Assembly: GCA_015654855.1 (NCBI GenBank)
Contig: JAATGA010000188.1
Location: forward strand, 1-36,926
DNA: 36,926 nucleotides
DNA from: Rhodobacterales bacterium
Lineage (GTDB): Bacteria > Pseudomonadota > Alphaproteobacteria > Rhodobacterales > Rhodobacteraceae
Direction of reading: 5' to 3'
The notes beneath the pieces are model-generated. The model saw only the letters and a program-made list of their open reading frames with translations, did not search any database and was not told the origin of the DNA. How positions within the stretch are numbered: the stretch's first letter is position 1; every line of letters begins with the position of its first letter. Positions 5,753 to 35,346 of this stretch are shown piece after piece. The position numbers and the translations under genes are program-made.

Positions 5753-7123
5753 ATGACGCAATCCTCTCCGGGCCGGGTAATGGACATGATTAGGGGGGAT
5801 GGCGTCAGGGCCAGAGCCCTGCGTGCGACGTTCTGGTCGATCTCCAACGTGGTCGGCATGAACGGGATGCGGCTGCTGTCGAATATCATTCTGACGCGGC
5901 TATTGTTCCCCGAGGCCTTCGGGCTGATGGCGCTGGTGCAGGTGTTCATCTACGCGCTGGTGACCTTTTCCGACATCGGCATCAATACTTCGGTGCTGCA
6001 AAGCAAGCGCGGCGACGATCCGGATTTCCTGGATACGGCGTGGACGCTGCAAATCATCCGCGGCGGGATCCTGTGGCTCGGGGCTTGCGTGCTGGCATGG
6101 CCGGTGTCACGGATCTACGGCCATCCGGATCTGCTGACCCTGTTGCCGGTCGCGTCACTGTCGCTTGTCGTTAATGGCTTCCAGCCGATGCGGGCGGCGT
6201 TGGCGGGGCGGCATCTGGCGCTTGGGCGGCTGACGGTCATCCAGCTCTTCGTGCAACTCGCCACGCTGCTGCTGACGGTGTTGCTGGCGTGGTGGTGGCA
6301 TTCGGTCTGGGCGCTGGCGATGTCGCAGGTGATCGGCGCGCTGCTCAACAACCTTCTGGTCCGGCTGTTCATGGAAGGACATCCGGACCGCTTTCGCTGG
6401 GATTGGACCAGCGTCCACGAGATCGTCGGCTTCGGGCGCTTCATCTTTTTGTCGACGATCGCGACCTTCCTGATCACATCAAGCGACCGCGCCATCCTTG
6501 GCACTTATGTCGACGTCACGACCTTCGGGATTTACAGCATCGCCCAGACCTTCGGCAGCCTGCCGGTGTTGATCGTGACTACAGTCAGCGGCCGGGTGAT
6601 GTTGCCGCTATACCGGATGAAATCCCCGCGCGAGAGCGACGAGACCCGGCAAAAAATCCGCCGCGCCGGTCGGATGCTGTCGGCTTTCGGGGTGATCATC
6701 GCGGTGGTGCTGGCTTTTTGCGGAACCTGGCTGGTCGATGTGCTATACGATTCACGCTATGCGCTGGCCGGGCCTATGCTGGTGCTTTTCGCGCTCAACG
6801 CGATCCCCAGCAATGTGATGATCGGAACGGAAGCCGTCATGCTGGCGCATGGCGACAGCCGCAGGCATTTCTTCCTGACCGTGTCGCTGGCGATCGTGCA
6901 GGTGGTACTGCTGTTCGTGATGATCCATCTGTTTGGGGTAGTGGGCGGGATCGTCGCGCCTGGGCTGGCGCTGTTGCTGACCTATCCGATCCGTGCGCGC
7001 ATGGTTGCGCATTACCGGGCCTGGGATCCGCTGAATGATGTCGTGGGGCTGGGGGTGGGGCTACTGCTCACGGGGCTTGCCTTTGTCCTGCACTGGGAAG
7101 AAATCATGAAACTCTTTCCCTGA
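5753..7123 (+). CDS. Wzx-type polysaccharide flippase (MOP/PST family)
   Basis: This 456-residue integral membrane protein belongs to the oligosaccharide flippases that move undecaprenyl-pyrophosphate-linked repeat units across the inner membrane. It has the usual N-terminus ([36 protein letters not shown]), where the ILTRLL..EAFG segment is typical of the PST family. By eye there are about 12 hydrophobic segments, with polar loops at [15 protein letters not shown] and [19 protein letters not shown]. The length is normal for the family. AAGGGA lies close upstream. The neighbouring ugd is 80 bp downstream on the same strand, so they probably form one operon. The substrate is inferred from context as the EPS unit of this locus. 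A teichuronic-acid-type exporter of the same family is the main alternative. Confidence 0.9.
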
Positions 7124-12888: not shown

Positions 12889-12917
12889 AAGGCCGGGTCA
12901 GGTGCCCGGCCTTTTTT
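12889..12917 (+). terminator. Rho-independent terminator after the exoY-like gene
   Basis: AAGGCCGGG (12889-12897), a 7-nt loop and CCCGGCCTT form a strong GC-rich stem that runs into TTTTTT (12912-12917). It lies 33 bp after the stop and on the correct strand. It also shows that the acyltransferase ORF cannot start at the GTG at 12902. Confidence 0.92.
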
Positions 12918-12946
12918 ATATCCTCCGGGCAAGGACAGGAACCGGA

Positions 12947-13855
12947 ATGCGTATCTACGGTCTTGACAGGCTCAAGTTTATCGCCGCGATCGGGGTCGTT
13001 TTCCTGCATACTGGAGCGTTTGGCACCCTATCCCTGTCCCTGAACGACATCATGGCGAATGGCTATCTGCGGATGGCAGTGCCGCTCTTCGCAATTTTGT
13101 CCGGGTATTTTTTTACGACACGGGACAAGCCTGGGAAATGGCTACCCTGGGTACTGCGGATCGTCTTGATCTATCTGGGGCTGATGGCGGCCTATGCGCC
13201 ATTCTGGCTGGATCAGGTCCATTCTATCAGAGGATGCGTGAATCTTCTGGTCTTCGGATATTTCCACCTGTGGTATCTGCCGGCCATCGCTTGCGCGGCG
13301 GTTGCGACCCATTACGGAGCCCGTTGGCGGTATTTCGACTGGCTGGTGGGAGTGTGCGCGCTTATCGGGCTCGGGCTTCAGTACCAGATGATCTATCATG
13401 GCGGTGTCAATCCACTGACCTTCCGCAACGGGCTGTTCTTTCTGCTGCCATTCTTTTTCATCGGTTACCGGATGGCCACATGGCGGCTTGTGGTGTCAGG
13501 GCCGCTGGTCCTGGCGTCGCTGCTGGCAGTTTTGGTCGAGACCTGCCTTGTGCGAGCTACTGCAACCCCACCTTACAGCCATGATATCCTGCTGTCGCTT
13601 TATGTTGCCTGTCCGGTCGTGGTTGCGTGGTGCATCGCGCATTATCGGCAGCGCGATTGTGCTCCCAATGCAGTCTATGGCACGTCGGACTTCATCTATT
13701 TCTATCACGTTCTCGCCATTCTCTGCTTGAGGATGGTGGGATGGTGGGAGGGCCTGCCGATGGCTGTGACAGTGATCCTTCTGACGATCACCGCCAGTCT
13801 GATCTATAACGGTTTGCGCAAACGCCTATGGCGCCCCTCTGCCAGTCCTGACTGA
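12947..13855 (+). CDS. Acyltransferase family 3 membrane protein
   Basis: This 302-residue polytopic protein starts MRIYGLDRLKFIAAIGVVFLHTG, the usual acyltransferase-3 opening with the conserved Arg and the catalytic-type His in the first membrane helix. It continues with PLFAILSGYFF and about ten hydrophobic helices, ending in SDFIYFYHVLAILCLRMVG. Such enzymes move acetyl, succinyl or similar groups onto sugars of glycans at the inner membrane. Compared with full OafA-like proteins it is short and lacks an SGNH domain. I chose the ATG at 12947 with AGGA shortly before it; the ORF track's GTG lies inside the terminator. It converges closely on the GT4 gene (12-bp gap). The acyl group and acceptor are unknown. 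Confidence 0.85.
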   Translation: MRIYGLDRLKFIAAIGVVFLHTGAFGTLSLSLNDIMANGYLRMAVPLFAILSGYFFTTRDKPGKWLPWVLRIVLIYLGLMAAYAPFWLDQVHSIRGCVNLLVFGYFHLWYLPAIACAAVATHYGARWRYFDWLVGVCALIGLGLQYQMIYHGGVNPLTFRNGLFFLLPFFFIGYRMATWRLVVSGPLVLASLLAVLVETCLVRATATPPYSHDILLSLYVACPVVVAWCIAHYRQRDCAPNAVYGTSDFIYFYHVLAILCLRMVGWWEGLPMAVTVILLTITASLIYNGLRKRLWRPSASPD

Positions 13856-17227: not shown

Positions 17228-18277
17228 ATGAAACTTCTGGTCAGCGGTGGCGCCGGCTTCATCGGGTCGGCCGTCGTGCGGCGGGCGATCGCACAGGGCC
17301 ATGCGGTCGTGAATGTCGATGCACTGACCTATGCCGCCTGCCTCGACAACGTGGCCCCGGTGGCATCAAATCCGGGCTATGCCTTTGAACAGGCAGATAT
17401 CCGCGACCGGGCCGCGCTGGATGCGGTCTTTGCAAGGCACGCACCCGATGCGGTGATGCATCTGGCCGCCGAAAGCCACGTCGATCGTTCGATCGACGGG
17501 CCGGGGGATTTCATCCAGACCAATATCACCGGCACCTTCAATATGCTCGAATCTGCCCGGGCCTATTGGACCCATCAGGGCAAGCCCGAAGCGTTCCGGT
17601 TTCACCATATCTCGACCGATGAGGTCTTTGGATCATTGCCCGACGATCCCGCGATCAAGTTTACCGAAGACACACCCTACGACCCGCGCAGCCCCTATTC
17701 GGCGTCCAAGGCCTCGTCCGACCATCTCGTGCGGGCCTGGCACGAGACCTATGGCTTGCCGGTGGTGCTGACGAATTGTTCGAACAACTACGGTCCCTAT
17801 CACTTCCCCGAAAAGCTGATCCCGGTGATCATCCTGAATGCCCTCGCGGGGGGAGCGCTGCCGATCTACGGCAATGGCCTGAATATCCGCGACTGGCTTT
17901 ATGTCGAGGATCACGCCGAGGCGCTACTTTTGGTGGTGGAAAAGGGCGTGGTCGGGCGCAGCTACAACATCGGCGGCGAGAACGAGCGCACCAATTTGGA
18001 GCTGGTGCAGACGCTTTGCGCGATCCTCGACCGGAAACGGCCGAAGGCCGCGGGCAGCTATGCCGACCAGATCACCTTCGTCACTGACAGGCCGGGCCAT
18101 GATGCGCGCTATGCGATCGACCCCTCGCGGATCCGCCTCGAACTGGGCTGGCGTCCGAGCGTGACCGTCGAAGAAGGTCTGGAACGCACCGTGCAATGGT
18201 ATCTCGACAACGAACCATGGTGGCGCGCGCTGCAAGGGCGCACGGGCGTGGGCAAACGTCTTGGGGTCGGTGGGTGA
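17228..18277 (+). CDS. rfbB: dTDP-glucose 4,6-dehydratase
   Basis: RmlB converts dTDP-glucose to dTDP-4-keto-6-deoxyglucose. In this 349-residue extended SDR, seen motifs are [12 protein letters not shown] (3-14), [15 protein letters not shown] (78-92), the hallmark STDEVFGSL (129-137) with the Asp-Glu dehydration pair, [12 protein letters not shown] (Tyr157, Lys161) and [14 protein letters not shown]. The length is normal. The following acyltransferase starts 9 bp after the stop, so the genes are co-transcribed. The ribosome site before the ATG is weak (AAAGAC). Confidence 0.95.
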
Positions 18278-18286
18278 ACGAACACC

Positions 18287-19381
18287 ATGCGTATCGCTGA
18301 CCGGGCCGCAGGGCGGGACAACAATTTCAGCTTGGTACGGATGATTGCCGCAACGGCAGTGCTGGTGTCGCATGCCTATCCGCTGGCCTTGGGAAGCGTT
18401 GCAATCGAGCCGCTTGAAAGCCTGCTGCACCGCGATCACATCAAAGATAACCTCGGCCGGGCGGCGGTTTTCGCCTTCTTCTGCATATCGGGTTTTTTTA
18501 TCACCCGCAGCTTTTGTCAGCGCCGGACGCTTGGCGGTTTCGTCCGGGCGCGGGTATTGCGGTTGTTCCCGGCGTTGGTGCCGATGTCGGTCATCGTCTT
18601 CGTGCTGGTCGCACTATGGGGCACAACTGCCCCTGGGGTCGACGTGCTGCGCGCCTTTCCGGGGTATTTTTACCGGATCATGACGCTCGGCCTGCCCGAT
18701 ATGTTCGGGTTGACCCATGTGGCCGGGGCCCTGCCGGGTGCTTTTGCGGAAAACCCGCTGCCCGGGGCGATCAACGGCTCGCTCTGGACATTGCCGTTTG
18801 AAGTCCTGTGCTATGTGCTGGTCGTTATCACGGGTCTTTTGGGTCTGTTGCGCAGCCGTCTGGCTTTCATGGCTGCTTTCGCACTGCTGCTGGCCGCCTA
18901 TCTTTTTGTCTTCCTAGTTGTGCCAGGCAAGGATTCACGGCTTGATCTTATGCTCTATCTCGCGCTGCCCTTTGGTATTGGCGCGGCCTTTTGGGTCTGG
19001 CGTGATACAGTGATGTTGAGCCTCTGGCTGACGCTGGTGCTGGCCGTCATCGCCTGGGTCGCGCGCGATACGGTGTTGTTCCGGCCGCTGTTCTGCCTTG
19101 CGCTGGCGCATGGGCTTTTTGTCATCGGCTATGCCCGGATCCCGATCATCGGCCAATATAACCGGCTGGGGGATTATTCCTACGGGATGTATATCTACGC
19201 CTTTCCGATCCAGCAGATGGCTGCGGCCCATGGCGCCACCACACCAACGATCAACCTGTTGATTTCGCTTCCGATCACCTTGGTTTTGGCGGTGATTTCA
19301 TGGCATTTGGTCGAAAAGCCGGCGATGCGGTTCGGCCGCCGCAGGCCTGATACCAATGTTCCGTCTTCAGCCATAGGATAA
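18287..19381 (+). CDS. Acyltransferase family 3 membrane protein inserted in the rhamnose operon
   Basis: This 364-residue inner-membrane protein has the acyltransferase-3 hallmarks: DNNFSLVRMIAATAVLVSHAYPL with Arg and catalytic-type His in helix 1, FCISGFFITRSF, the arginine-rich loop RARVLRLFPALVP, and NGSLWTLPFEVLCYV (N..LWTL..E). Near the C-terminus are YSYGMYIYAFPIQQ and SWHLVEKPAM. About ten membrane helices can be counted, with no SGNH domain. It sits 9 bp after rfbB and 7 bp before rfbD, so it belongs to the operon. That makes rhamnose, or a glycan containing it, a plausible acceptor; this is inference. The acyl group is unknown. Confidence 0.88.
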   Translation: MRIADRAAGRDNNFSLVRMIAATAVLVSHAYPLALGSVAIEPLESLLHRDHIKDNLGRAAVFAFFCISGFFITRSFCQRRTLGGFVRARVLRLFPALVPMSVIVFVLVALWGTTAPGVDVLRAFPGYFYRIMTLGLPDMFGLTHVAGALPGAFAENPLPGAINGSLWTLPFEVLCYVLVVITGLLGLLRSRLAFMAAFALLLAAYLFVFLVVPGKDSRLDLMLYLALPFGIGAAFWVWRDTVMLSLWLTLVLAVIAWVARDTVLFRPLFCLALAHGLFVIGYARIPIIGQYNRLGDYSYGMYIYAFPIQQMAAAHGATTPTINLLISLPITLVLAVISWHLVEKPAMRFGRRRPDTNVPSSAIG

Positions 19382-19388
19382 CTGCTTC

Positions 19389-20243
19389 ATGACGATTCTC
19401 GTCTTCGGCCAGACCGGCCAGGTCGCGACCGAACTATACCGGCTCGAGCCCGGCGCGATTTTCCTCGGCCGGGACCGTGCCGACCTGGCCAACCCCGAAG
19501 CCTGCGCGGCAGTGATCCGCGAAATCCACCCCGATGCGGTCATCAATGCCGCAGCCTGGACCGCCGTCGACAAGGCGGAATCCGAGGAGGAGGCCGCAAC
19601 GGTGGTGAATGGTACCGCACCGGCGGCAATGGCCCTGGCGGCGGCGCAGATCGGCGTGCCCTTCGTCCAGATCTCGACCGATTACGTTTTCGAGGGCGCG
19701 GGCGAGACAGCGTTCCAGCCTGGCGATCCGGTTTCCCCCTTGGGAGCCTATGGCCGATCGAAACTGGCCGGGGAACAGGGTGTGATCGCTGCGGGTGGGA
19801 TCCATGCGATCTTGCGCACCTCTTGGGTATTTTCGGCGCATGGGGCGAATTTCGTCAAGACGATGCTGCGCCTGTCCGAAACGCGCGACACGCTGACGGT
19901 GGTGGCAGATCAGATTGGCGGGCCGACACCGGCACGCGCGATCGCCGAGGCCTGCCTGGCAATCGCGCGCCAGCTTTGCGCCGATCCGTCGAAAAGCGGC
20001 ACTTATCATTTCTCCGGCGCGCCGGACGTCAGCTGGGCCAGTTTCGCTCAGGAGATCTTTGCCCAGACCGGACGGGCGGTCACGGTTCAGGGAATCCCGA
20101 CCGAGGCCTATCCAACCCCGGCGAAACGGCCGGCGAATTCTCGACTAGATTGTCGGGCGACGAAGACGGTTTTCGGTATCGACCGGCCGGACTGGACGGC
20201 GGAACTCGCCGATATATTGACGCAACTGGGGGTGACGGCATGA
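19389..20243 (+). CDS. rfbD: dTDP-4-dehydrorhamnose reductase
   Basis: RmlD makes dTDP-L-rhamnose with NAD(P)H. The 284-residue SDR shows ILVFGQTGQVATEL with the dinucleotide loop, NAAAWTAVDKAESEEE, the signature QISTDYVFEGAGE, and YGRSKLAGEQ with the catalytic Tyr-x3-Lys, then LRTSWVF. The length is typical. AGGATAAC stands before the ATG. Its stop overlaps the rfbA start (ATGA), giving tight coupling. Confidence 0.95.
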   Translation: MTILVFGQTGQVATELYRLEPGAIFLGRDRADLANPEACAAVIREIHPDAVINAAAWTAVDKAESEEEAATVVNGTAPAAMALAAAQIGVPFVQISTDYVFEGAGETAFQPGDPVSPLGAYGRSKLAGEQGVIAAGGIHAILRTSWVFSAHGANFVKTMLRLSETRDTLTVVADQIGGPTPARAIAEACLAIARQLCADPSKSGTYHFSGAPDVSWASFAQEIFAQTGRAVTVQGIPTEAYPTPAKRPANSRLDCRATKTVFGIDRPDWTAELADILTQLGVTA

Positions 20244-21124
20244 CCGCACGCAAGGGGATCATTCTGGCAGGCGGCTCGGGGACGCGGCTCTATCCGCTGA
20301 CGATGGCGGTGTCGAAGCAGCTGATGCCGATCTACGACAAACCGATGATCTATTATCCGCTGAGCGTGCTGATGCTGACCGGCATCCGCGATGTGGCGAT
20401 CATCACGACGCCGACCGATCAGGGGCAGTTCCAGCGGCTGCTCGGCGATGGCAGCCAGTGGGGGATGTCCTTTACCTGGATCGTCCAGCCCACGCCTGAT
20501 GGCCTGGCACAGGCCTATCTGCTGGCCGAGGATTTCCTTGCGGGCGCACCTTCGGCGATGGTTCTGGGCGACAATATCTTCTTTGGCCATGATTTGCCGA
20601 AAATGCTGAAGGCCGCCGATACCAAAACAGTGGGCGGTACCGTCTTTGGCTACCGCGTCGCCGATCCGGAGCGCTATGGCGTTGTTGCTTTCGACGCCGA
20701 TGGCACCGTACGTGAGATCATCGAAAAGCCTGCGGTTCCGCCCTCGAACTATGCGGTGACGGGGCTGTATTTTCTGGATGGCGAGGCACCCGTTCGGGCG
20801 CGCGCGGTGAAGCCTTCGGTGCGCGGTGAACTTGAGATCGTCACGCTGCTGGAAAGTTACCTGAAGGATGGTACGCTCGGTATTGAGCGGATGGGGCGCG
20901 GTTTTGCCTGGCTCGACACCGGGACCCATGCGAGCCTGCTGGATGCGGGGAATTTCGTGCGCACCTTGACCCTGCGCCAAGGCGTTCAATCGGGCTGCCC
21001 AGAAGAGATTGCCTGGAGCCAAGGTTGGATTGACGACGCACGAATGGAACAGCACGCCCAGACATTTGCCAAGACCGACTACGGCAAATATCTGGCGAGC
21101 CTGCTGCTCGAAGGGCAGAAGTAA
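20240..21124 (+). CDS. rfbA: Glucose-1-phosphate thymidylyltransferase
   Basis: RmlA makes dTDP-glucose from dTTP and glucose-1-phosphate. The 294-residue protein starts MTARKGIILAGGSGTRLYPLT, with the nucleotide-binding GGSGTRLYP, then SKQLMPIYDKPMIYYPL, VLGDNIFFGH and EIIEKPAVPPSNYAVTGLYF, all standard. I chose the ATG at 20240, which overlaps the rfbD stop by ATGA. The ORF track's start at 19823 is an out-of-frame extension through rfbD and should be ignored. It is the last gene of the rhamnose operon. Confidence 0.96.
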   Translation: MTARKGIILAGGSGTRLYPLTMAVSKQLMPIYDKPMIYYPLSVLMLTGIRDVAIITTPTDQGQFQRLLGDGSQWGMSFTWIVQPTPDGLAQAYLLAEDFLAGAPSAMVLGDNIFFGHDLPKMLKAADTKTVGGTVFGYRVADPERYGVVAFDADGTVREIIEKPAVPPSNYAVTGLYFLDGEAPVRARAVKPSVRGELEIVTLLESYLKDGTLGIERMGRGFAWLDTGTHASLLDAGNFVRTLTLRQGVQSGCPEEIAWSQGWIDDARMEQHAQTFAKTDYGKYLASLLLEGQK

Positions 21125-24578: not shown

Positions 24579-26435
24579 TTATTCGCTCGTCTCGATCAGC
24601 CGACGCAACACCGGCGCCAGCAGCTTTGCCCCGGCCTCGGTAACATGCCCACCGTCGATTGTAACAACTTTTCCATCATCGGTGAACAGCCGACAAGCTG
24701 TATGGTTACCCTCGCAGAAGGGATCAAGCAGCTCTGTCAGATAAGGAGCGGGGACGGTACGGCGCATATGCGCGTTGACGTCGACGAAATAGGGCTCTGA
24801 CGACTGTCGGTATGCGGTGCGGCGGTCGAACGGGATCGACAGTGCTTTTTCCAGATTCGTCAGGCCAAAATTTTTGATGCCGAACACCCGGACCTTCACA
24901 CCATAGGTTTTTTCCAGATTCGTGATGGTATCGGGTAACAGGTCCACAACCCAATCGAGCCACAGCGCATCCAGCCAGACCTCGTCAGCCTGTTCCAGAA
25001 TCGGCTGCATTTTTGGATTGTCGAGCCGTCCCATGATCTTGCAGCGTTCTTCGTTCAGTGCCGAGATATGCGCGCTCAGGTCCTGCGTTACAAAGACATT
25101 ACCGCAGCCCGCATTGATACGTTTGGTCGAAAATTGATAGCGCTGATCCAGCCCTGCCTCCAGCGTGATATTGTAGAGGTCTCGGGCATGGCTGTCGCCG
25201 ACGATTACGACTTTGCGCCGATCTGAAGTGTCGAAAGGCCGGAACTCGGCCGCGTCAAAGCGGGTCTCGCTATAGGCAGGAAGGTTCTCGTACTGGTGCA
25301 TTATGGCGACATCGCGCGGGTCGTAGCGCGCCTCGAAGCCACGGTTGAACACGATCACCGCACCAATGATTATGAAGGCCAGGCTGCCAATGGCGGCGGC
25401 GGTGAAGATCCGCTCGCGATCAATTGTGCGATTGCGCCGCACCGGGGTTTCAACAAATCGATAGCTCAGCCAGCTCAGCAAAAAGACAACCGGCAGACTC
25501 AGCAGCGGCGCACGGGAACCTTCGTAGCCGATGTGGCGCAGATAGGTGAAAATCGGTTGGTGCCAGAGATAAAGCGAATAGCTGATTAGCCCGATCAGGA
25601 CGAAGGGGCGCGTCGACAACAATCGATGCACCGGGTTGCCCTCGGGGCGGGACAAGATGATCAGCGCCGCCCCCGCGACAGGAATCACCGCTGCAATACC
25701 CGGAAAAACCGTCTTGTTGGTATAGATGAAGATCGCATAAAGGATCAGCCCCAGCCCAACCGCAGACAGAGCTGCGCCCATGGGCCCCGTGAACCCCGGC
25801 CTGCGCGCCAAGAACATGGCACAAAATGCCCCCGTCAACAGTTCCCATATCCGCGAGAAGGGCAGGTAGAATCCGGTGTCGAAATGCAACCGCGTCAGAT
25901 ACCAGCTCGCCGCCAAAGAAACCACGAACAGCACCGCCAGGACCGTCCGCAACAGCCCCTTCCCTCGCGCAAAGAGGAAGGCCAGCAACGGCGGGAAGAA
26001 GATGTAGAATTGTTCTTCGACCGCAAGGCTCCACGTATGGACCAGCGGTTTCAACTCTGCTGCGGCGCCGAAATACCCCCGTTCGCTCCAGAACAGTATG
26101 TTCGAAACAAAGGTCGGCACCGCGATCAGGCTCTTGCCGTAATCAACGAACGCATTCGGCAGCAGCAGGAACCAGGCAAAGGGGATCGTCGCGGCCATCA
26201 CCACGAACAGTGCCGGCAGCACCCGCCGGATCCGTCGCTCGTAGAAGCGCAGGATGGAGAAATCGCCCTTGTCCAGCTCGCGCAGCAAGATCGTGGTGAT
26301 CAGGTAGCCCGATATCACGAAGAAGATGTCAACCCCGACATAGCCTCCCCCGAAAACCGATAGCCCGGCATGAAAGAGGATGACGGGAAGGATGGCGATG
26401 GTGCGCAGGCCATCAATCTCGGCACGATATTTCAA
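24579..26435 (-). CDS. OafA/YrhL-type acyltransferase with C-terminal SGNH domain
   Basis: This large inner-membrane O-acyltransferase pairs an acyltransferase-3 domain (about 1-360) with a periplasmic SGNH domain (about 405-618). Visible are YRAEIDGLRTIAILPVILFHAG with the family Arg and His, DIFFVISGYLITTI, RFYERRIRRVLPALF, HTWSLAVEEQFYIFFPPLL, and YSLYLWHQPIF. The SGNH part has VVIVGDSHARDLY (Ser about 415) and near the end DGGHVTEAGAKLL (Asp594, His597), so the triad looks complete. The start is probably the TTG at 26435 (618 residues): relatives begin MKYRAEIDGLR and AAGG lies 6 nt upstream. The ORF track uses another TTG at 26468. It stands alone, likely acetylating the exported EPS in the periplasm. 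Confidence 0.9.
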   Translation of the reverse strand: MKYRAEIDGLRTIAILPVILFHAGLSVFGGGYVGVDIFFVISGYLITTILLRELDKGDFSILRFYERRIRRVLPALFVVMAATIPFAWFLLLPNAFVDYGKSLIAVPTFVSNILFWSERGYFGAAAELKPLVHTWSLAVEEQFYIFFPPLLAFLFARGKGLLRTVLAVLFVVSLAASWYLTRLHFDTGFYLPFSRIWELLTGAFCAMFLARRPGFTGPMGAALSAVGLGLILYAIFIYTNKTVFPGIAAVIPVAGAALIILSRPEGNPVHRLLSTRPFVLIGLISYSLYLWHQPIFTYLRHIGYEGSRAPLLSLPVVFLLSWLSYRFVETPVRRNRTIDRERIFTAAAIGSLAFIIIGAVIVFNRGFEARYDPRDVAIMHQYENLPAYSETRFDAAEFRPFDTSDRRKVVIVGDSHARDLYNITLEAGLDQRYQFSTKRINAGCGNVFVTQDLSAHISALNEERCKIMGRLDNPKMQPILEQADEVWLDALWLDWVVDLLPDTITNLEKTYGVKVRVFGIKNFGLTNLEKALSIPFDRRTAYRQSSEPYFVDVNAHMRRTVPAPYLTELLDPFCEGNHTACRLFTDDGKVVTIDGGHVTEAGAKLLAPVLRRLIETSE

Positions 26436-26765
26436 AGGTGGCCTTCTTTCCAGGGTTCCCCTGCCCAAGCGATCACCGGTCCGGATACTGTGGCCTGTAC
26501 GCGGTATCGCGGACGCCGATTCGCGGCCGTCGGGTTATCGGTGGAACTTTTGCCGGACACTGGGTGGGTCTCTGCCGTGGGGTCGGGGGATCGAAACGGG
26601 AAATGGTGTGCGCCATTCAGCCGGAGACTGCCCCAAATGCGCGGTAACCACAATGCCCACCGCAACGCAGCAACATCGATCATTCGCAGCTGGTTACGTT
26701 CGAGGCACGGGGCGAAACTAGGAGCAAAAGAAGGATCGTAACACAGAAAAAACTAGAAACGAAAC
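26436..26765. other. Intergenic stretch without a recognisable gene
   Basis: The overlapping ORFs in this 330-bp stretch are all short, rich in Arg/Pro and unlike known proteins. It must hold the promoter of the minus-strand acyltransferase, but no clear box was identified. Its right end runs into the terminator of the VPLPA-CTERM gene. Confidence 0.45.
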
Positions 26766-26811: not shown

Positions 26812-27300
26812 TCAGGATTTTTTACGACGTTTCGCAATGCCGAGGCCCGCGAGCGCGGAACCGAGCAGCAGGCCAGCAGCCGGAAGCGGGACGGTATCCA
26901 GAACCTGGGTTGCGGTGAAGGTCGCGGTCGCCAGAACCGTGCCCGTGGAGCCAGCGGCATAGGTGTAGGTGACGGTGAAATCATCCGAGGTGGTGAAGCC
27001 CGTAGCCAGCAGGGTCGCCGTATTGCCTTGGCCTTTGGTCCAGACGGTATAGGTTTCGCCCGTGGAGCTCACGGTGACGGAAACGCTGGTGATGTCAGCC
27101 CAAGCACCATTGGCGGTGAAGGAAATATCACCGATGGTCCAGGTAGTGCCGTCGGCGACATCATAGTCGACAGAGACGCTATTGCCCGACGTCAACACCT
27201 CGATATCGTAGTTAAATCCCGACGAAACGGTCGCAGCCGAGGCGGCGAACGGAGCAGCCAGCGCAAACGTGGCGCCGAGGAGAAAGTGTTTCATGTTCAT
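26812..27300 (-). CDS. Secreted protein with VPLPA-CTERM sorting signal
   Basis: This 162-residue protein has a Sec signal peptide (MNMKHFLLGATFALAAPFAASAA, cut after ASA) and a Thr/Ser/Val-rich beta-type mature domain. The C-terminal tail reads VPLPAAGLLLGSALAGLGIAKRRKKS: a VPLPA motif, one hydrophobic helix and a basic end. That tripartite tail is the VPLPA-CTERM form of the PEP-CTERM sorting signal, recognised in other bacteria by an XrtD-type exosortase. I chose the ATG at 27300 with AAAGG upstream; the ORF start at 27390 adds 30 residues. No Cys is seen in the mature part. A similar gene lies 330 bp upstream. It is probably a surface or matrix protein made together with the EPS. Confidence 0.85.
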   Translation of the reverse strand: MNMKHFLLGATFALAAPFAASAATVSSGFNYDIEVLTSGNSVSVDYDVADGTTWTIGDISFTANGAWADITSVSVTVSSTGETYTVWTKGQGNTATLLATGFTTSDDFTVTYTYAAGSTGTVLATATFTATQVLDTVPLPAAGLLLGSALAGLGIAKRRKKS

Positions 27301-27578
27301 GTTGTACCTTTTGCAAAAGGAGGAGGGGATCATCATTACTTGATCCGAGATCAACTTATAGTTGATTTTTCGTAAAAAAACTACCGTCATGCAAAAAGTC
27401 TCGCGATTGCAGCATGTTCATGGGATGCGTATGTAAATTTGTTTAAAAACATATGGATAAGAAAAGATGCAACCAAGAATAGGGGTTTTTCTCCTTGCAA
27501 AGCAGGACCACCGGCATGGTTCATTACACGAATCTGGAACTGGACCCACATCCCAAGGAGGCCCATCCGAACGTTAAA
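27301..27578 (-). promoter_or_regulatory. AT-rich leader and promoter region of the VPLPA-CTERM gene
   Basis: This 278-bp region is visibly AT-rich (for example ATGTAAATTTGTTTAAAAACATATGG) compared with the surrounding genes and should contain the promoter and a long 5' leader. AAAAGGTACAAC directly precedes the ATG. No coding sequence was recognised. Confidence 0.5.
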
Positions 27579-27630: not shown

Positions 27631-28146
27631 TCAGGCCTTCTTGTTGCGCCGCGCTGCAATGCCGAGGCCTGCCACAGCTGAAACCAGCAAGATGCCAGCA
27701 GCCGGAACCGGGACCACGGGGGTTGCGGTGAAGGCATAGGTCGCCTGCAGCGGGAAGGTTCCGGTCCCCGCATAGCTCAGTGTGATGATGAAGCTCGAGT
27801 TCCCCGTGGCCGTAAAGCCATCACTCTGCAACTCGGTATAGCCGATAGTCACCTGACCGCCTGAAAGTGAAATAATTTCCCAGACCGTCGTGGTGTCACC
27901 ATCAACACCGGCCGTAACCAGATTGATGTTGCCAACCACCGCCGCAGCGGTCGTACTTGCACCGATCAGCGTATAACCGATTTCGCTGATGTCGAATGCG
28001 GAGCTGGTTGTCCAGGTTTCACTGTATTGCTGACCCGGGATGAGAGTGATAGCCGCACCGTTCGAGCCGGTGGTGACCGTAGCAGCCTGCGTCGCAACAG
28101 GAAGAGCAGCAGCGAGGAAAGCTGCAGACAGAAATTTCATACTCAT
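27631..28146 (-). CDS. Secreted protein with VPxPA-CTERM sorting signal
   Basis: This 171-residue protein has a signal peptide (MSMKFLSAAFLAAALPVATQAA) and a Thr/Gly/Ser-rich mature part. The tail VPVPAAGILLVSAVAGLGIAARRNKKA has the same architecture as the neighbour (VPxPAAG, hydrophobic helix, basic end), with Val for Leu in the motif. The start is the ATG at 28146, because GAGGG stands 8 nt upstream; the longer ORF start at 28266 runs into AT-rich leader. The two proteins share domain layout (ATxTFTAT before the tail; GxxFTATGN-like repeats), so they are probably paralogues. Both have their own terminators and leaders, implying separate control. The function of the mature domain is unknown. 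Confidence 0.83.
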   Translation of the reverse strand: MSMKFLSAAFLAAALPVATQAATVTTGSNGAAITLIPGQQYSETWTTSSAFDISEIGYTLIGASTTAAAVVGNINLVTAGVDGDTTTVWEIISLSGGQVTIGYTELQSDGFTATGNSSFIITLSYAGTGTFPLQATYAFTATPVVPVPAAGILLVSAVAGLGIAARRNKKA

Positions 28147-28433
28147 TGACACTACCCTCAATGTCCGAAAATACGGACAAACTAAATAACAAGAGCAAGA
28201 TCGCTCTTTGGACACTTTACTATGAGGCTTGCCACAACGCGATAGAATATTTTGCAGTTTCAGCACGCTGAAGCGCGCGTGATTTTGTTACCATTCGCAT
28301 ATAATATATATTTATCAAATACTTACATAAATAATATCGCATGCGTGAATGCAACAACCTCAAAAATATTAAAAGATGATTAACGCCTACACCCACTGCA
28401 CATCCACGTGATTTCAGTGGGGCACCCCACCCT
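28147..28433 (-). promoter_or_regulatory. AT-rich upstream region of the second VPxPA-CTERM gene
   Basis: This 287-bp non-coding stretch is strongly AT-rich around 28290-28380 (ATAATATATATTTATCAAATAC). A short hairpin (AAGAGC, 6-nt loop, GCTCTT) occurs at about 28191-28208 in the likely 5' leader. It probably also holds the 3' end of the manC transcript. No gene was seen. Confidence 0.45.
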
Positions 28434-29888
28434 TCAGCCCTTGGCGCCCTGCCCCCGAGAATAGACATCCTCGTATCGAATGATGTCATCTTCGCCGAGA
28501 TAGGTACCGGTCTGCACCTCGATCAGCACCATCGGCACCTTGCCGGGGTTCTCCATTCGGTGCACCGCGCCAAGCGGGATATAGACCGACTGGTTTTCGG
28601 TCAGCAACGTCACCTGATCATCGACTGTCACCCGGGCCGTACCCTCGACCACGATCCAGTGTTCGGACCGGTGGAAGTGGCTTTGCAGGCTCAGTGCCGC
28701 ACCGGGATGGACATGGATGCGTTTCACTTGAAAGCGGTCGCCGATGACAAGGCTCTCGTACCAACCCCAGGGGCGGTGATCCATCGGGAATTGCGTCGCC
28801 TGCACCGCCTGCTTGGCCTTCAACGCATCGACCGCCTTCTTCACGTCCTGGGCGCGCGACATATCGGCCACCAGCACAGCATCATTCATCGCCACAGCGA
28901 TGATATTCTTCAGCCCGATTCCGACAACTTCGAGGTTGCTGCTGTCCGATCGCAGCAGCGTATCGGCGCAATCAATCGCCGTCGCCGCGCCCGATAGTGA
29001 AACGCCATTGTCGTCGCGCGACCCCTCGCGCCAGACCGCATCCCAGCCGCCCAGATCCGACCAGCCCGCCGCGAACGGCACCACCGACAGATTCGGCGCT
29101 TTTTCCATCACCGCATAGTCGATCGAGATATCCTCGGCCTGCGCCCAAGGACCCGGCGCCAGCCGCAGGAATCCCAGATCGGCCGCCGCCTCGGCCACTG
29201 CAGCCCTGACCGGTGGGCACAGGCCCGGCGCGCAGGCCTCGAAGGCGGCGACGACATCCTTTGCGCGGAACAGGAAGATACCGGCGTTCCACAGATAGGT
29301 ACCCGCCGCCAGCATCTCGGCGGCGCGGGCGGCATTGGGTTTTTCGACAAAACGCGACAGCTTGACCGCCGTGCCCGACCCATCCGGCTGCGCCGCCAGT
29401 TCCAGATAACCATAGCCGGTTTCGGGCCGGTCTGGCAGGATGCCAAAGGTGACCAGATCCCCGGCTGCGACCGCCGTCAGCCCCTGGCGAACCGACTCGT
29501 GGAATATCGCCGCATCCGGGATGACATGATCCGAGGGCGCGACCAGCATGATCGCCTCGGGATCGTCCTGCAGCAGATGCAGCGCGGCAGCGAGCACCGC
29601 TGGTGCGGTGTTGCGCCCTTCCGGTTCGATGATGATCGCGCCGGGATCAAGAGCGACCTCGGACAGCTGTTCGGTCACAATGAAGCGGAAGTCCGAATTG
29701 GTCAGCACGACCGGAGGCCGGAAGGACAGATCGCCCGTCTCGCCGGACATGCGCAGCGCAGAGGCCTGAAAAAGCGTCTGCTGGCTGACCAAGCGGACGA
29801 ACTGCTTGGGATAGGATTTGCGCGACAGCGGCCAGAGGCGGGTTCCGGACCCGCCAGCGAGAATAACGGGCGTGATGAGAGAGGTCAT
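28434..29888 (-). CDS. manC: Mannose-1-phosphate guanylyltransferase / mannose-6-phosphate isomerase
   Basis: This bifunctional enzyme makes GDP-mannose. The protein is 484 residues, the usual length of the ManC/XanB/AlgA class. The N-terminal nucleotidyltransferase shows PVILAGGSGTRLWPLSRKSYPKQF (8-31), VAPSDHVIPD and the sugar-binding RFVEKPNAARA. The C-terminal type II isomerase cupin shows RPWGWYESLVIGDRFQVKRI, HPGAALSLQSHFHRSEHW with the metal-binding His residues, and QSVYIPLGAVHRMENPG. It lies 75 bp after the adenylation/carrier/acyltransferase fusion gene on the same strand, so the two are likely co-transcribed. No GDP-mannose dehydratase (fucose) or phosphomannomutase is in the window; mannose itself is the simplest predicted residue. 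Confidence 0.94.
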   Translation of the reverse strand: MTSLITPVILAGGSGTRLWPLSRKSYPKQFVRLVSQQTLFQASALRMSGETGDLSFRPPVVLTNSDFRFIVTEQLSEVALDPGAIIIEPEGRNTAPAVLAAALHLLQDDPEAIMLVAPSDHVIPDAAIFHESVRQGLTAVAAGDLVTFGILPDRPETGYGYLELAAQPDGSGTAVKLSRFVEKPNAARAAEMLAAGTYLWNAGIFLFRAKDVVAAFEACAPGLCPPVRAAVAEAAADLGFLRLAPGPWAQAEDISIDYAVMEKAPNLSVVPFAAGWSDLGGWDAVWREGSRDDNGVSLSGAATAIDCADTLLRSDSSNLEVVGIGLKNIIAVAMNDAVLVADMSRAQDVKKAVDALKAKQAVQATQFPMDHRPWGWYESLVIGDRFQVKRIHVHPGAALSLQSHFHRSEHWIVVEGTARVTVDDQVTLLTENQSVYIPLGAVHRMENPGKVPMVLIEVQTGTYLGEDDIIRYEDVYSRGQGAKG

Positions 29889-29963: not shown

Positions 29964-32576
29964 TCAGCGGAAATACATCTTGTTGAGCCGCCACATCCCA
30001 TAGCCGATAGCCGAAAAGAACAGCACTAGCGGCAGCAGCAGCGCCGCCTTGCCTGGCAATCCGGCCACAATCAGCAGGTCCTTCACCGGAATGACCAATT
30101 CGTGCAGCGCATAGACTGGCAACGCCAACCCGCCGAGCAAGATCAGCACTCGCACAACCATTCGCAGGACTGCGGATAGATCTTGCCAGCGTTCCAGCAT
30201 CCAGACGGCCCCCGCCAGCAGCAGCGCCGTGAACCCCGCATAAATCATCGCACCCAGCAGGCTCCACCAGAACGTGGTCTCGCGGTCGAGCAGCACACCT
30301 GGCCCCCAATTTTCTATCACGATGACCACGCCGCAGGCGAGCAGTACCCCCCCCGCCAGAGCCGACTGCCGGACAAAGACCCGGATATCGGGGGCATGCA
30401 TCATCCAACTGCCCAAGGCTATCCCGGCCAGCACCAGCACTGACATCCCGAAGTAGCTGTATTTCGCCACCGCCATTAGCCGCAACCATTCCAGTGGGTT
30501 GTTCCAGTGCTCATGGCCCAGCACCATCCCCGCCAGCAGCCACAGCGACCACATCAGCGGGATCCCGATCGCGGCCACCTGCAACACCCTGCCATGCAGC
30601 AAGCGCAGCCAGAGCGGCATCGAAAGCAGGGCCAAGAAATAGAAACTGAGGACATTGTAGAAGGCCTCGCCCCAACTACGTCCGGACAATCCGACCCCGG
30701 TCGCAACCCGCAAAGTCTGCGAGATAGTTGCCAGTAGCAGCAGCGCGAAGAAGATAACCAGTAGCGAGAACCTCTGTCGACGACGTACAGAATGGCGGTT
30801 TCCCGGATAGCCGTCGAGCATGAAACAAGCGATCCCCATGCCAAAGACAATCGCAAATCCCGGCGTGCCCATACGCGACACGAAGGCCAGCGGGTCGTAA
30901 TGCAACTGCGGCGCAAGACGCGCCCAGACCCCCGGCATCCAGTGCGACAGCAGCACCGCGATCACCATGAAGCCACGGGCGACATTGACGCCCCAGCTTT
31001 TGACCGTGCGCGGCGGCAACGTCTCTGTCGTGGCGGGGGTATCTTGTTCAGTATCCAGCAGCGCGGCGATATCTGCGAGGCTACGCCCTTCGAGCGTTGC
31101 CCGCACTACGGGGCGCGAGAAATGCGATTCCATTGCCAGACCGATCTGAATCGCACCGAGGGAATCACCGCCGACGTCGTAGAACCCACTTTCCGGATAG
31201 AGCACCGCCGGTCCGAGCACGCTGCGCCAGACCTCAGCGATACGTTCTTGCGCGGGGGTCAGATCACCTGCCTCGCCTCCCGCCCCTTCGATTCTCGTCG
31301 GCGAAAGCGCCTCGGCCTGCCAGATCCCGCGCAGTTCCTTACGCTGGATCTTGCCGGAACCGGTGCGCGGCAGCTCCTCCAGAGCCAGCATCCGCACCTG
31401 TCCAGCGGCTTGAACCCCCTTGGCCGCCAGAGCCTGCACCAGCGCCGCCTGCAACAGCCCTGCATGTGGCGCCGCCAGCCTGTCATGCGCCAGCAGTAGC
31501 GTTTCTCCGCGCAAAGGATCCTCGACCGAACTCAGCGCGAAATGCCCTGGTTCCAGCGTCACCAGCGCCGCCATATCGACCTCCAGCGCTTCGGCCGATA
31601 GCTTGACCCCCGACAGGTTGATCTGGTCGTCAAGTCGGCCGCGGTAATACAGCCAGCCGTCGTGCAATTCGCCCCGGTCACGGGTGTGCAGCCAGCCATC
31701 TTCACCTGCGAGCGGCACCAGATCCCCAGTTCCCGACAACATTCCCATCGCCAGATGCGGGCCGCGAATACAAATCTCGCCCTCGGTCCCGATGCGCAGC
31801 TGGGTCTGGCCAATCGCACCACCGACACTTTCAAGCACGGCCTCTTCGGCCGCATCGATCACCAGAAACGTCGATCGCGAGGCCTCGGTCAGGCCGTAGT
31901 GCTGCACGATCCGGGCTTGGGGAAACATCCGCCGCAGGCCGATTTTTTCCTCGGCCGACATGTATTGGCTGCCGATCTCGATCCAACGCACCTTCGCCCC
32001 CAGATCCCCCAAGAAATCCGGCCGTGCCAGAAGGATCCGCCACAGGCTTGGTACTGCAGAAATGGCGTTAATCTCATCTGCCACGAGCAGATCGCGGATC
32101 TCGGCCGGATCGAAGCGTTCGGGAAGGTATAGGGACCCGCCCACCCGTGCCACCACGCGCGCCCGGCCAAGACCGAAGGAGTAGGTGACCGGCACGCCGA
32201 TATACTCGCGGACATCACCAGTCAGGCCCATCACCTCGATCAGCCGGTCTTCGACATCGGCCAGCGCCGCGCGACTGATCACGATGGCCTTCGGTTTACC
32301 CTCGGTACCCGAGGAAAACACGACCTGTGCTGCATCCCCATCCTGTCCTTCGGCCGGGGATGAACAATCTGGTGGGGCCAAATCTGGCCGCATCCAACCG
32401 TGCCGAGTTCCCACGTCGACCCGACGCTCGACCTGAAGCGAAGGATAATCTGCCGGGTCCGTTCCCGGACGGCAAATCGCAAAGGCCGTGCCCTCGCTGT
32501 AAAGACGAAACACTTCCTCAAGGAAATCGAGTGAGTTCCGCGCCTCCAGCACAGTGATCTTCAGCGAGTAAGCCAT
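29964..32576 (-). CDS. Three-domain fusion: AMP-forming ligase, acyl carrier domain, membrane acyltransferase
   Basis: This 870-residue fusion reads in one clean frame. Residues 1-420 are an ANL adenylation domain: phosphate loop VVFSSGTEGKPKAIVIS (85-101), QHYGLTEASR (225-234), DGWLYYRGRLDDQINLSG (306-323) and the catalytic Lys409 in LPRTGSGKIQRKEL. Its N-lobe is about 100 residues shorter than usual before the phosphate loop. Residues 437-510 are a carrier domain with the phosphopantetheine Ser472 in YDVGGDSLGAIQI. Residues 525-870 form about ten membrane helices beginning GVNVARGFMVIAVLLSHW, with the acyltransferase-3 Arg and His. The plain reading is that an acid is activated, loaded on the carrier, and handed to the membrane acyltransferase that modifies a glycan. 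The substrate (amino, fatty or hydroxy acid) cannot be told. It is divergent from the MBOAT gene and precedes manC. Confidence 0.88.
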   Translation of the reverse strand: MAYSLKITVLEARNSLDFLEEVFRLYSEGTAFAICRPGTDPADYPSLQVERRVDVGTRHGWMRPDLAPPDCSSPAEGQDGDAAQVVFSSGTEGKPKAIVISRAALADVEDRLIEVMGLTGDVREYIGVPVTYSFGLGRARVVARVGGSLYLPERFDPAEIRDLLVADEINAISAVPSLWRILLARPDFLGDLGAKVRWIEIGSQYMSAEEKIGLRRMFPQARIVQHYGLTEASRSTFLVIDAAEEAVLESVGGAIGQTQLRIGTEGEICIRGPHLAMGMLSGTGDLVPLAGEDGWLHTRDRGELHDGWLYYRGRLDDQINLSGVKLSAEALEVDMAALVTLEPGHFALSSVEDPLRGETLLLAHDRLAAPHAGLLQAALVQALAAKGVQAAGQVRMLALEELPRTGSGKIQRKELRGIWQAEALSPTRIEGAGGEAGDLTPAQERIAEVWRSVLGPAVLYPESGFYDVGGDSLGAIQIGLAMESHFSRPVVRATLEGRSLADIAALLDTEQDTPATTETLPPRTVKSWGVNVARGFMVIAVLLSHWMPGVWARLAPQLHYDPLAFVSRMGTPGFAIVFGMGIACFMLDGYPGNRHSVRRRQRFSLLVIFFALLLLATISQTLRVATGVGLSGRSWGEAFYNVLSFYFLALLSMPLWLRLLHGRVLQVAAIGIPLMWSLWLLAGMVLGHEHWNNPLEWLRLMAVAKYSYFGMSVLVLAGIALGSWMMHAPDIRVFVRQSALAGGVLLACGVVIVIENWGPGVLLDRETTFWWSLLGAMIYAGFTALLLAGAVWMLERWQDLSAVLRMVVRVLILLGGLALPVYALHELVIPVKDLLIVAGLPGKAALLLPLVLFFSAIGYGMWRLNKMYFR

Positions 32577-32813: not shown

Positions 32814-34259
32814 ATGTTTTTCACACAATTGTCTTTCTGGGGCTTCTTCCTGCCCGTTCTCGGGCTGGCGGTCGTACTGCCACGGCTGTTCGGACCCTAT
32901 TCCCGCAGTCTGATGCTGCTGGCGGCGAGCTGGCTGTCCTATGCGTTCTGGGACTGGCGCTTTCTCGGGTTGCTAATCGTGTCTACGGCCGTGGTCTGGG
33001 CGATCGCGCTGCGCATCGAAGACGCCGAGGGTGCAGCGCGCAAGCGCTGGCTCTGGTTGTCGCTGGTGTTCAGCATCGGTCTGCTGGGCGTGTTCAAATA
33101 TCTGAACTTCTTCGTCGATTCCTTCATCGGCCTGATGGCGGCGATCGGGATGCCCGTGACGGACGATTGGGCGGTGCGACTGATCCTCCCGCTCGGGATC
33201 TCGTTTTATACATTCCAGACCGTGGGCTATACGATCGACGTATATCGCCGCACCCTGCCGGCGGAACGCAGCTTTGCCAATGTCGCGCTGTTCGCGTCGT
33301 TCTTTCCCACCCTCGCTTCGGGACCGATCCAGCGCGCGGGCGATCTGCTGGCGCAGATCCGTGCACCGCGACCGATCCTGTGGGATGACATCGGCCGGGG
33401 GGCTGTGCTGTGCCTGCTCGGTCTGATCAAGAAGATCGTCATCGCCGATGCGCTGGCGCCTCAGGTTGCGGCGATCTACGGTGCCGACCCTTCGGTTGTG
33501 GGTGGGGCCGACGTGATCTATGCGACATGGCTGTTCGCGATCCAGATCTACTGTGACTTCTCGGGCTATACCGATATCGCGCGCGGGGTGGCGCGGATGC
33601 TGGGTTTCGATCTGAAATACAACTTCCTGCAACCCTATTTTGCCACCAGCCCGCAGGAATTCTGGCGCCGTTGGCATATCAGCCTGTCGACCTGGCTGCG
33701 CGACTATCTGTACATCCCGCTCGGTGGCAGCCGGGGCGGCTCGGCTGCCATCGACCGCAATCTGATGATCACAATGCTGCTTGGCGGGCTGTGGCACGGC
33801 GCGGCGTGGAATTTCGTCGCCTGGGGCGGCTTTCAAGGCGCGGTGCAGGTGATCCAACGCCGGTTGGGCCTGAAAGGGCGCAAGCCCGGCCAGCCGGTGG
33901 CAGGGGGCATCGTCGGAAAGCTGCGCCATATCGTCACTGTCGCGTTGTTCTTTCAAGTTACCTGCTATGGGTGGCTGCTGTTCCGCGCTACGTCCTTTGA
34001 CCAGATAGCGGCCTTCACCGCCCACATTTTCACCGCGCCGCTGCGCACGGCCGGGCTGATCTCGGCGCCGCCAGTACCCGCGCTATGCGGCATTTTGTTC
34101 CTGCTGCTATGGGATCTCTGCGCTGAAACTGCGGATGACCAGCGATTTTACATGCGCTGGCCGCTTGCGGTGCGAGCCTGCCTCTGGGCGGCGATGATCT
34201 ACCTTCTGGCCTTTGGCGCGACCACTGCGACCTCGGTCTTCATCTATGCGAAGTTCTGA
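32814..34259 (+). CDS. MBOAT-family O-acyltransferase (AlgI-like)
   Basis: This 481-residue membrane-bound O-acyltransferase resembles AlgI, which acetylates alginate. About eleven hydrophobic helices are visible. Key motifs are ILPLGISFYTFQTVGYTIDVYRR, FFPTLASGPIQRAGD, CDFSGYTDIARGVARMLGFD, SPQEFWRRWHISLSTWLRDYLYIPLGGSRGG and the catalytic-His segment GGLWHGAAWNFVAWG. All are conserved, so the enzyme should be active. The gene is followed 10 bp later by an SGNH-like gene, matching the AlgI-AlgJ/AlgX or DltB-DltD pairing. It is divergent from the adenylation/carrier/acyltransferase fusion. It may act with acetyl-CoA alone, as AlgI is thought to, or take an acyl group from the carrier domain. 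Confidence 0.92.
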   Translation: MFFTQLSFWGFFLPVLGLAVVLPRLFGPYSRSLMLLAASWLSYAFWDWRFLGLLIVSTAVVWAIALRIEDAEGAARKRWLWLSLVFSIGLLGVFKYLNFFVDSFIGLMAAIGMPVTDDWAVRLILPLGISFYTFQTVGYTIDVYRRTLPAERSFANVALFASFFPTLASGPIQRAGDLLAQIRAPRPILWDDIGRGAVLCLLGLIKKIVIADALAPQVAAIYGADPSVVGGADVIYATWLFAIQIYCDFSGYTDIARGVARMLGFDLKYNFLQPYFATSPQEFWRRWHISLSTWLRDYLYIPLGGSRGGSAAIDRNLMITMLLGGLWHGAAWNFVAWGGFQGAVQVIQRRLGLKGRKPGQPVAGGIVGKLRHIVTVALFFQVTCYGWLLFRATSFDQIAAFTAHIFTAPLRTAGLISAPPVPALCGILFLLLWDLCAETADDQRFYMRWPLAVRACLWAAMIYLLAFGATTATSVFIYAKF

Positions 34260-34269
34260 GGAGCGGGCT

Positions 34270-35346
34270 ATGCTGCGGCAACTGAAGATCGTTTTGGCAA
34301 CTCTGGCAGCGCTGGTCGTGCTGGATATCGCGGTGGCGCTGGTTCTGACAAAGGCACCTGCATCGTTGCGCAGTTTCTTCGACTACGGCCGTTCGACGCC
34401 GGGCAAGCTGACGCAATGGCAAGACCAGCCGGGGCTCAATGGCAATCTGCTGAAGGTCGCTTGGCTACCCGACGGATTGGACCATGCGCGTAAGGCCTTC
34501 GAGGCTGAGCCACCCGGAACCGGCCCTGTCATCCGCAACTACGGCATGTCCTTCACCATCCAGATGGTAGAGACCGCCACCGGGATGTTGCCCGGACTAC
34601 GCAGCTCTGGTATCCTTGGACCGGGTGCACCGCCGAACTATGTCTATGCTGCCTTCCTCGATGACCGTGCGCACCGCCGCCCGGGCGATGTCGTACTGTT
34701 CGGCATCTTGTCAAAGAATGTGCCGGGGCTGGCCTCGTTTTCGAACCAGGTCTGGGCTTTTGAACAGCCCGCCCCCTTTACCTACCCAATCTTTCGCCCC
34801 GACACGGCAGGTGGACTCACCCGTACCGACCCGGTGGTCGCCTCGTTCGGGGATTTCCGCGATCCGGCGAAATCGGCGGCCTTCGACGCCCAGATCCGTA
34901 CTCAGGACATGCTATGGACACCCGAAGCCTTCGCGCTGCCCGCGCTTGATGCTTCACCGTTCGCGCGACTGCTGCGCCGGGCCTTCGCCAATGACGCAAT
35001 CGATGCGCGCGAGACAGCAGTGACGGCACATCCGCTGGATGGTCCGATGCCTTGGGCCGAGGTTTTAATCCGGATGATCCGCGAGATCGATCGCATTACC
35101 CGCGAAGACGGCCAGACCCCGGTGATCATGTTGATCCAGTCGCAAGGAACGGACACGGCGCCGCTGATGAAAATGCTCGGCCCGACGTTGAAGGAGCTGG
35201 GCATCGCCTATATTGCCACCGAGGAAACCGCGCCACCCACCGACGCACGCGCCTTCCTGCCCGATGGCCATTTAACCCCGGCGGTGAATAAAATTCTCGC
35301 CCGGCAGTTTCTGGACATGCCAGCGGTGGCTGCAGCGGCGCACTGA
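34270..35346 (+). CDS. SGNH-like periplasmic partner of the MBOAT (AlgJ/AlgX/DltD-like)
   Basis: This 358-residue protein has one N-terminal membrane helix (IVLATLAALVVLDIAVALVL, about 7-26) and a periplasmic domain. The block RNYGMSFTIQMVETA places a Ser (94) where SGNH enzymes have their nucleophile, and LPDGHLTPAVNKILA supplies the Asp332/His334 pair near the C-terminus. In AlgJ/AlgX-type partners these residues transfer the acyl group to the polymer. The rest has no match I can name and the overall identity looks low, so this call rests on motifs and on position. I chose the ATG at 34270 because GAGGAG lies just before it; the ORF track adds 19 residues overlapping the MBOAT gene. It converges on a GT4 gene. 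Confidence 0.75.
   Translation: MLRQLKIVLATLAALVVLDIAVALVLTKAPASLRSFFDYGRSTPGKLTQWQDQPGLNGNLLKVAWLPDGLDHARKAFEAEPPGTGPVIRNYGMSFTIQMVETATGMLPGLRSSGILGPGAPPNYVYAAFLDDRAHRRPGDVVLFGILSKNVPGLASFSNQVWAFEQPAPFTYPIFRPDTAGGLTRTDPVVASFGDFRDPAKSAAFDAQIRTQDMLWTPEAFALPALDASPFARLLRRAFANDAIDARETAVTAHPLDGPMPWAEVLIRMIREIDRITREDGQTPVIMLIQSQGTDTAPLMKMLGPTLKELGIAYIATEETAPPTDARAFLPDGHLTPAVNKILARQFLDMPAVAAAAH

Follow-up and report, generated by a model that had tools for sequence, protein, structure and literature searches.

A candidate self-loading acyltransferase: an adenylation–carrier–AT3 fusion protein in a polysaccharide locus of a Rhodobacterales bacterium

The acyltransferase-3 (AT3) proteins known so far are believed to take their acyl groups from acyl-CoA, chiefly acetyl-CoA, and this narrows the choice of groups for the decoration of surface sugars. 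What, then, is the role of an AT3 domain that is joined in a single reading frame to an acid-activating adenylation domain and a phosphopantetheine carrier? Such a gene is found in positions 1 to 36,926 of contig JAATGA010000188.1, a stretch referred to here as the window, and a preliminary description had read its product as a self-loading, carrier-bound route for decorating a polysaccharide. The adenylation, carrier and AT3 fusion is termed AAT below, and its parts are as follows.

29964..32576, reverse strand: A-PCP-AT3 (AAT) fusion gene, 870 aa, stop included in the coordinates
31302..32576, reverse strand: adenylation domain, residues ~1-425, with a short N-lobe and catalytic Lys409
31056..31247, reverse strand: phosphopantetheine carrier, residues 444-507, attachment Ser472 in GGDSL
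29967..31013, reverse strand: AT3/TmAT membrane domain, residues ~522-870, with R534-X10-H545 in TMH1 and invariant Y646, Y779 and H825

The fusion reported at this position is real, and its three-part nature is borne out by the 870-aa frame, by Pfam matches above the curated cut-offs to AMP-binding (residues 74-278, E 2e-24) and PP-binding (residues 444-507, E 2e-7), and by the fold model of the AT3 part. The key residues claimed for each part are all present, viz. the ligase motifs (P-loop SSGTEGKPK, HYGLTE, TxD, GRxDDxIN and TGSGK) with Lys409, the GGDSL Ser472 and R534/H545; the P-loop, A5, A7, A8 and A10-Lys motifs of ANL adenylating enzymes are all there. Lys409, Ser472 and the other catalytic motifs are invariant in six aligned full-length AATs (the window protein counted), and the motifs are recognisable in 18 proteins. 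Misassembly can be set aside, since the same single frame is carried by isolates and by independent MAGs. The carrier is separated from TMH1 by 15-20 residues in AATs; a model of the full-length protein has a pTM of 0.42, too low to place the carrier against the pore, and finds McyG (4r0m) as its best fold match overall.

The assignment of the C-terminal part to AT3 is weak by sequence. It scores 21 bits against PF01757, below the gathering cut-off of 31, a phmmer search of the PDB returned chance matches only, and a profile–profile comparison with ten ordinary AT3s yielded no more than a partial, short match, for which reason a fold search was used. Modelled separately (pLDDT 85.7, pTM 0.86), this part has the 10-TMH TmAT fold, and HGSNAT and GWT1 (TmAT) account for its top eight PDB fold matches, with probability 1.00 and TMq 0.44-0.58, at E values of only 6e-3 to 9e-2; after the eighth match the probability drops to 0.33 or less. 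AT3 proteins and HGSNAT belong to a single superfamily (PMC12423673). The R-X10-H that is the signature of AT3 (PMC9833829) is R534/H545 in TMH1 of the window protein, and relatives of the same architecture pass the PF01757 cut-off (L029 with 92, P0009 with 48 and L082 with 38 bits). With signature, model, fold matches and relatives' scores in agreement, the predicted AT3 identity is otherwise well supported.

The short N-lobe of the ligase had been taken to suggest an unusual substrate pocket, a suggestion that did not hold up. The lobe lacks its first ~60 residues, those ahead of the ‘NS’ strand, and these are absent in all members of the family to which the protein belongs (type 1), so that type 1 AATs do not have the full-length N-terminal lobe of ANL enzymes; the segments that form the acyl pocket (A4, A5 and the 299/301 strand) are intact in the window protein. 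Nor is the lobe truncated, since in a 75%-identical orthologue the frame has the same starting residue and is immediately preceded by a stop. Alignment to NRPS and XrtA-type ligases gives S133, F134, G137, I199, I201, H226, R234 and S235 as the pocket-equivalent residues, with inferred numbering. At PheA position 235, where the aligned NRPS and XrtA-type ligases retain an Asp that anchors the alpha-amino group, the window protein has Ser133 and the aligned type 1 members likewise have Ser; with this anchor missing, an alpha-amino-acid substrate is thought unlikely. All type 1 members keep an Arg in the A5 segment (R234 of the window protein, in HYGLTEASRS), which XrtA-type ligases also have, and the type 2 AATs described below have an Arg near the equivalent position. 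From these residues, the substrate could plausibly be a non-amino acid whose second group is polar or acidic.

The preliminary description treated the fusion as a one-off; the fusion stands, its uniqueness does not. Some 18 relatives with the short N-lobe are found across alpha- and gammaproteobacteria, and a protein-based scan of a public genome collection gave full-length relatives in Sinirhodobacter populi (L030, the 75%-identical orthologue), a Roseobacter, Cognatiyoonia, Microbulbifer, Marinagarivorans and another Pseudomonadales genome. Searches of family, class and phylum samples scored the top few candidates per genome, so the counts are lower bounds: AATs occur in at least 11 of the 397 genomes sampled from the window's bacterial family, its own included, and in at least one further genome of the phylum sample (399 genomes), while in the class sample (385 genomes) the window's own genome was the sole one with an AAT among the top candidates scored. 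Members are found on plasmids of Novosphingobium, Paracoccus and Neorhizobium. The copy in Neorhizobium galegae (L017:11980-14199) is split over several frames and is apparently broken or frameshifted. Matches to NRPSs in Thioclava and Rhodococcus were rejected as ordinary assembly lines of other architecture, and a Gemmobacter match (L018) was excluded as unrelated because no alignment as AT3 was obtained for its C-terminal part.

The architecture also recurs with other adenylation domains. The same genome encodes a second A-PCP-AT3 protein, on contig C410 (L037:6383-9010, forward strand, 875 aa), next to a standalone AT3 (5162-6307). This type 2 protein shares with the window AAT the three-part order, the R-X10-H and the lack of RxxRxxP, a motif considered below, but has a full-length N-lobe, an A domain of another clade and an AT3 part above the Pfam cut-off; matches to it were found in 9 of 199 family genomes, its own included. 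A third, NRPS-like A-carrier-AT3 version (type 3) lies within a 1351-aa open frame of genome G242 (L082:1-2472, forward strand). A tree built from adenylation cores resolves types 1 and 2 as separate clades (support 1.0 each) and places type 3 with an NRPS-like domain; besides type 1, this architecture is thus found in two or more other adenylation lineages, each with a root of its own. That the same three parts have been assembled independently argues that the carrier and the AT3 work together. Several kinds of AT3 occur even within type 1, the AT3 halves of L027-L029 resembling the standalone AT3 of L023. The fusion partners named in the AT3 literature are SGNH, racemase and NRF, with an A-carrier fusion not among them (PMC9558356, PMC12423673, PMC9833829), and we found no paper on an A-carrier-AT3 fusion in the open-licence literature, which is weak evidence of absence; these proteins appear to be a conserved and undescribed family.

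Considering the question of the donor, acetyl-CoA serves the characterised AT3s and a review of these proteins favours acyl-CoA over ACP (PMC9558356), which makes the contrast drawn earlier with ordinary, acyl-CoA-using acyltransferases a fair one. Modelling and mutagenesis have implicated conserved arginines, including the RxxR segment of TMH3, in a CoA-binding donor pore (PMC9833829). All 27 fused AT3 domains that were scored keep the R-X10-H and none has RxxRxxP. Among the ordinary AT3s of these genomes in which an R-X10-H can be recognised, 11 of 16, including two in the window, have RxxRxxP. The window protein has RRRQR in the RxxR region of TMH3, and this is not kept even in the 75%-identical orthologue. 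Loss of the motif is not unique to fusions, since the standalone AT3s of L023 and L031 also lack its exact form; the pattern, though not clean, agrees with a donor that lacks CoA's 3'-phospho-ADP. The N-termini of AT3s lie in the cytosol (PMC9833829) and the carrier stands shortly before TMH1, which would place it at the correct face of the membrane. Speaking against a carrier-fed route, the genome yielded a single AcpS-type transferase gene and no further ACPS-family (Sfp-type) match, although the assembly is 73% complete.

It could be argued that the AT3 of these fusions uses ordinary acyl-CoA and that the A-carrier portion performs separate chemistry, such as supplying a thioester to a soluble enzyme, the fusion serving co-localisation only. 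The use of acetyl-CoA by characterised AT3s (PMC9558356) and the free AT3s that also lack RxxRxxP are in keeping with this. The AAT protein, however, has no condensation, thioesterase or other consumer domain, the three-part order recurs with different A domains, and where carriers occur in tandem they immediately precede the AT3, all of which leaves this alternative distinctly unlikely.

The tandem carriers are themselves linked to another gene. TauD-type dioxygenase genes are present on the same fragment in five of the ten EPS-type loci with a type 1 fusion, as follows.

L020:8162-9130, TauD-type gene
L021:7941-8876, TauD-type gene
L023:16968-17903, TauD-type gene
L035:13221-14024, TauD-type gene
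L032:17796-18836, TauD-type gene

In L020, L021 and L023 this gene runs in the same direction as the fusion gene and stops 6-12 bp ahead of it (Cognatiyoonia sediminum has such a closely spaced upstream TauD gene), in L035 it overlaps the end of the fusion gene, and in L032 it is 5 kb distant. Three to four tandem carriers, directly before the AT3, are found in four of the five TauD-linked fusions, three of which have the TauD gene at the 6-12 bp spacing, and in none of the five loci without TauD. The relatives that these TauD-type proteins matched, weakly, include amino-acid beta-hydroxylases. Linkage and tandem carriers together point naturally to a carrier-bound acyl group that is probably hydroxylated by TauD in these relatives, a reading that does not extend to the window locus, where no TauD was found and the fusion has a single carrier.

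As regards the acceptor, the position of the gene within a polysaccharide locus, as first described, is upheld by its neighbours, among them the following.

28434..29888, reverse strand: manC-type mannose-1-phosphate guanylyltransferase, 75 bp downstream of AAT on the same strand
17228..21124, forward strand: rmlB, standalone AT3, rmlD and rmlA (dTDP-rhamnose genes)

The window locus further contains chain-length (Wzz) genes, an XrtA-type ATPase, glycosyltransferases, three other AT3s and VPLPA-CTERM proteins, and in Sinirhodobacter populi (L030) the order is rmlB, rmlD, rmlA, AAT, manC. The other AT3s of the window lie at 12902-13855, 18287-19381 and 24579-26468, one of them SGNH-fused, making the locus unusually rich in acyltransferases. 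Two small VPLPA-CTERM proteins (26812-27390 and 27631-28266) adjoin the XrtA-type ATPase and chain-length genes.

The alternative that the true acceptor is a lipid or a small secreted metabolite, with the EPS neighbourhood coincidental or specific to a subfamily, draws on the several subfamilies of AAT that adjoin regulators, oxidoreductases or oxidases, a sulfotransferase or transport genes. We consider it unlikely given that the EPS-type subclade recurs in polysaccharide loci (with glycosyltransferase, Wzz, WecG or rml/manC neighbours) of several unrelated genera. Decoration of EPS, as proposed in the preliminary description, thus suits the setting of the window's subclade and may fail for the family as a whole, since some members lie outside polysaccharide loci; a polysaccharide acceptor is best supported for this subclade only. 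In a Pseudomonadales MAG, a gene for a GDSL/AlgX-like SGNH protein (L032:12569-13669, reverse strand) adjoins the fusion gene, and could encode a periplasmic partner.

A putative second acylation pair lies divergently beside the AAT gene.

32814..34259, forward strand: divergent MBOAT (DltB/PatA/AlgI class) with C-terminal FIYAKF (FXYXXF acceptor-Tyr motif)
34270..35346, forward strand: SGNH/DltD-like partner of the MBOAT, assigned by position and weak motifs (GMS, DGH), with no family match

These neighbours raise the possibility of a Dlt-like relay, in which the fused carrier serves the MBOAT and its SGNH-like partner and the AT3 acts chiefly as an anchor or an additional exit. DltB is the sole NCBIfam match of the MBOAT and accounts for all of its PDB matches, the pair is adjacent to AAT, and a homologous pair (56%/45% identity) lies ~15 kb from the AAT gene in G368. 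Yet neither the 75%-identical orthologue nor most relatives have the pair next to AAT, every scored fusion keeps the AT3 catalytic residues, and the MBOAT has an FXYXXF tail of its own, an acceptor-tyrosine feature typical of bacterial MBOATs that is also found in the acetyl-CoA user PatA (PMC12148441). For the lack of linkage in the closest orthologue and the MBOAT's own tail, a full relay of this kind was demoted and is in our view quite improbable; the MBOAT and SGNH-like proteins are likelier to be an acylation pair of their own than an obligate partner of AAT.

A self-loading carrier route remains the most economical reading. We put the probability that AAT is a membrane-anchored self-loading acyltransferase at roughly 0.6, and infer the substrate class, the direct transfer from carrier to AT3 and the acceptor. 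In such a mechanism, the cytosolic adenylation domain would convert a free non-alpha-amino carboxylic acid to acyl-AMP and load the acyl group onto the tethered carrier, on its phosphopantetheine arm at Ser472; in TauD-bearing relatives the carrier-bound group would probably be hydroxylated before transfer. The arm, standing in for CoA, would then enter the AT3 pore at its cytosolic mouth, and the AT3 (R534/H545) would pass the acyl group to the outer face and on to a sugar hydroxyl of the locus polysaccharide, either directly or via an SGNH partner. There is perhaps an even chance that these proteins form a wider class of AT3 whose pore is fed by a covalently tethered carrier and not by acyl-CoA, a class that arose in three or more separate assemblies and delivers non-acetyl, non-amino acyl groups to extracellular polymers; in some members TauD would hydroxylate the group on the carrier, and tandem carriers would serve as a loading reservoir. 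Having its own ligase and carrier would make AAT independent of the CoA pool in its choice of acyl group and account for unusual acyl groups on polysaccharides, and donor recognition by AT3, carrier arm versus CoA, would become a directly testable question.

Among known systems, the ordinary AT3/TmAT proteins (OafB, OatA, OacA and HGSNAT) share with AAT the 10-helix fold, the R-X10-H in TMH1 and a cytosolic N-terminus, whereas AAT adds upstream A and carrier domains, does not conserve RxxRxxP and is expected to take a carrier thioester rather than CoA as donor. NRPS A-PCP didomains have the same A then PCP order, but AAT has no condensation or thioesterase domain, lacks the Asp at position 235 and ends in AT3. 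The XrtA/exosortase-associated acyl-CoA ligases of TIGR03098 are the second-best NCBIfam match of the A domain and share YGLTEaxRSTxL with it; these ligases have a full N-lobe, the Asp at position 235 and no AT3 fusion, and membership was rejected at 91.9 bits against a curated cut-off of 592. The closest parallel in logic is the Dlt system (DltA, DltC, DltB and DltD), which likewise adenylates its substrate, loads a carrier, crosses the membrane from the carrier thioester and modifies an envelope polymer. AAT differs in being one polypeptide, in having an AT3/TmAT in place of the MBOAT (DltB), and in lacking both the amino-acid-anchoring Asp and a conserved DltD-like partner. On the proposed mechanism, AAT works like the Dlt pathway without being a member of it, having no amino-acid anchor and no fixed DltD; the Dlt strategy would then have been reached with a different membrane enzyme.
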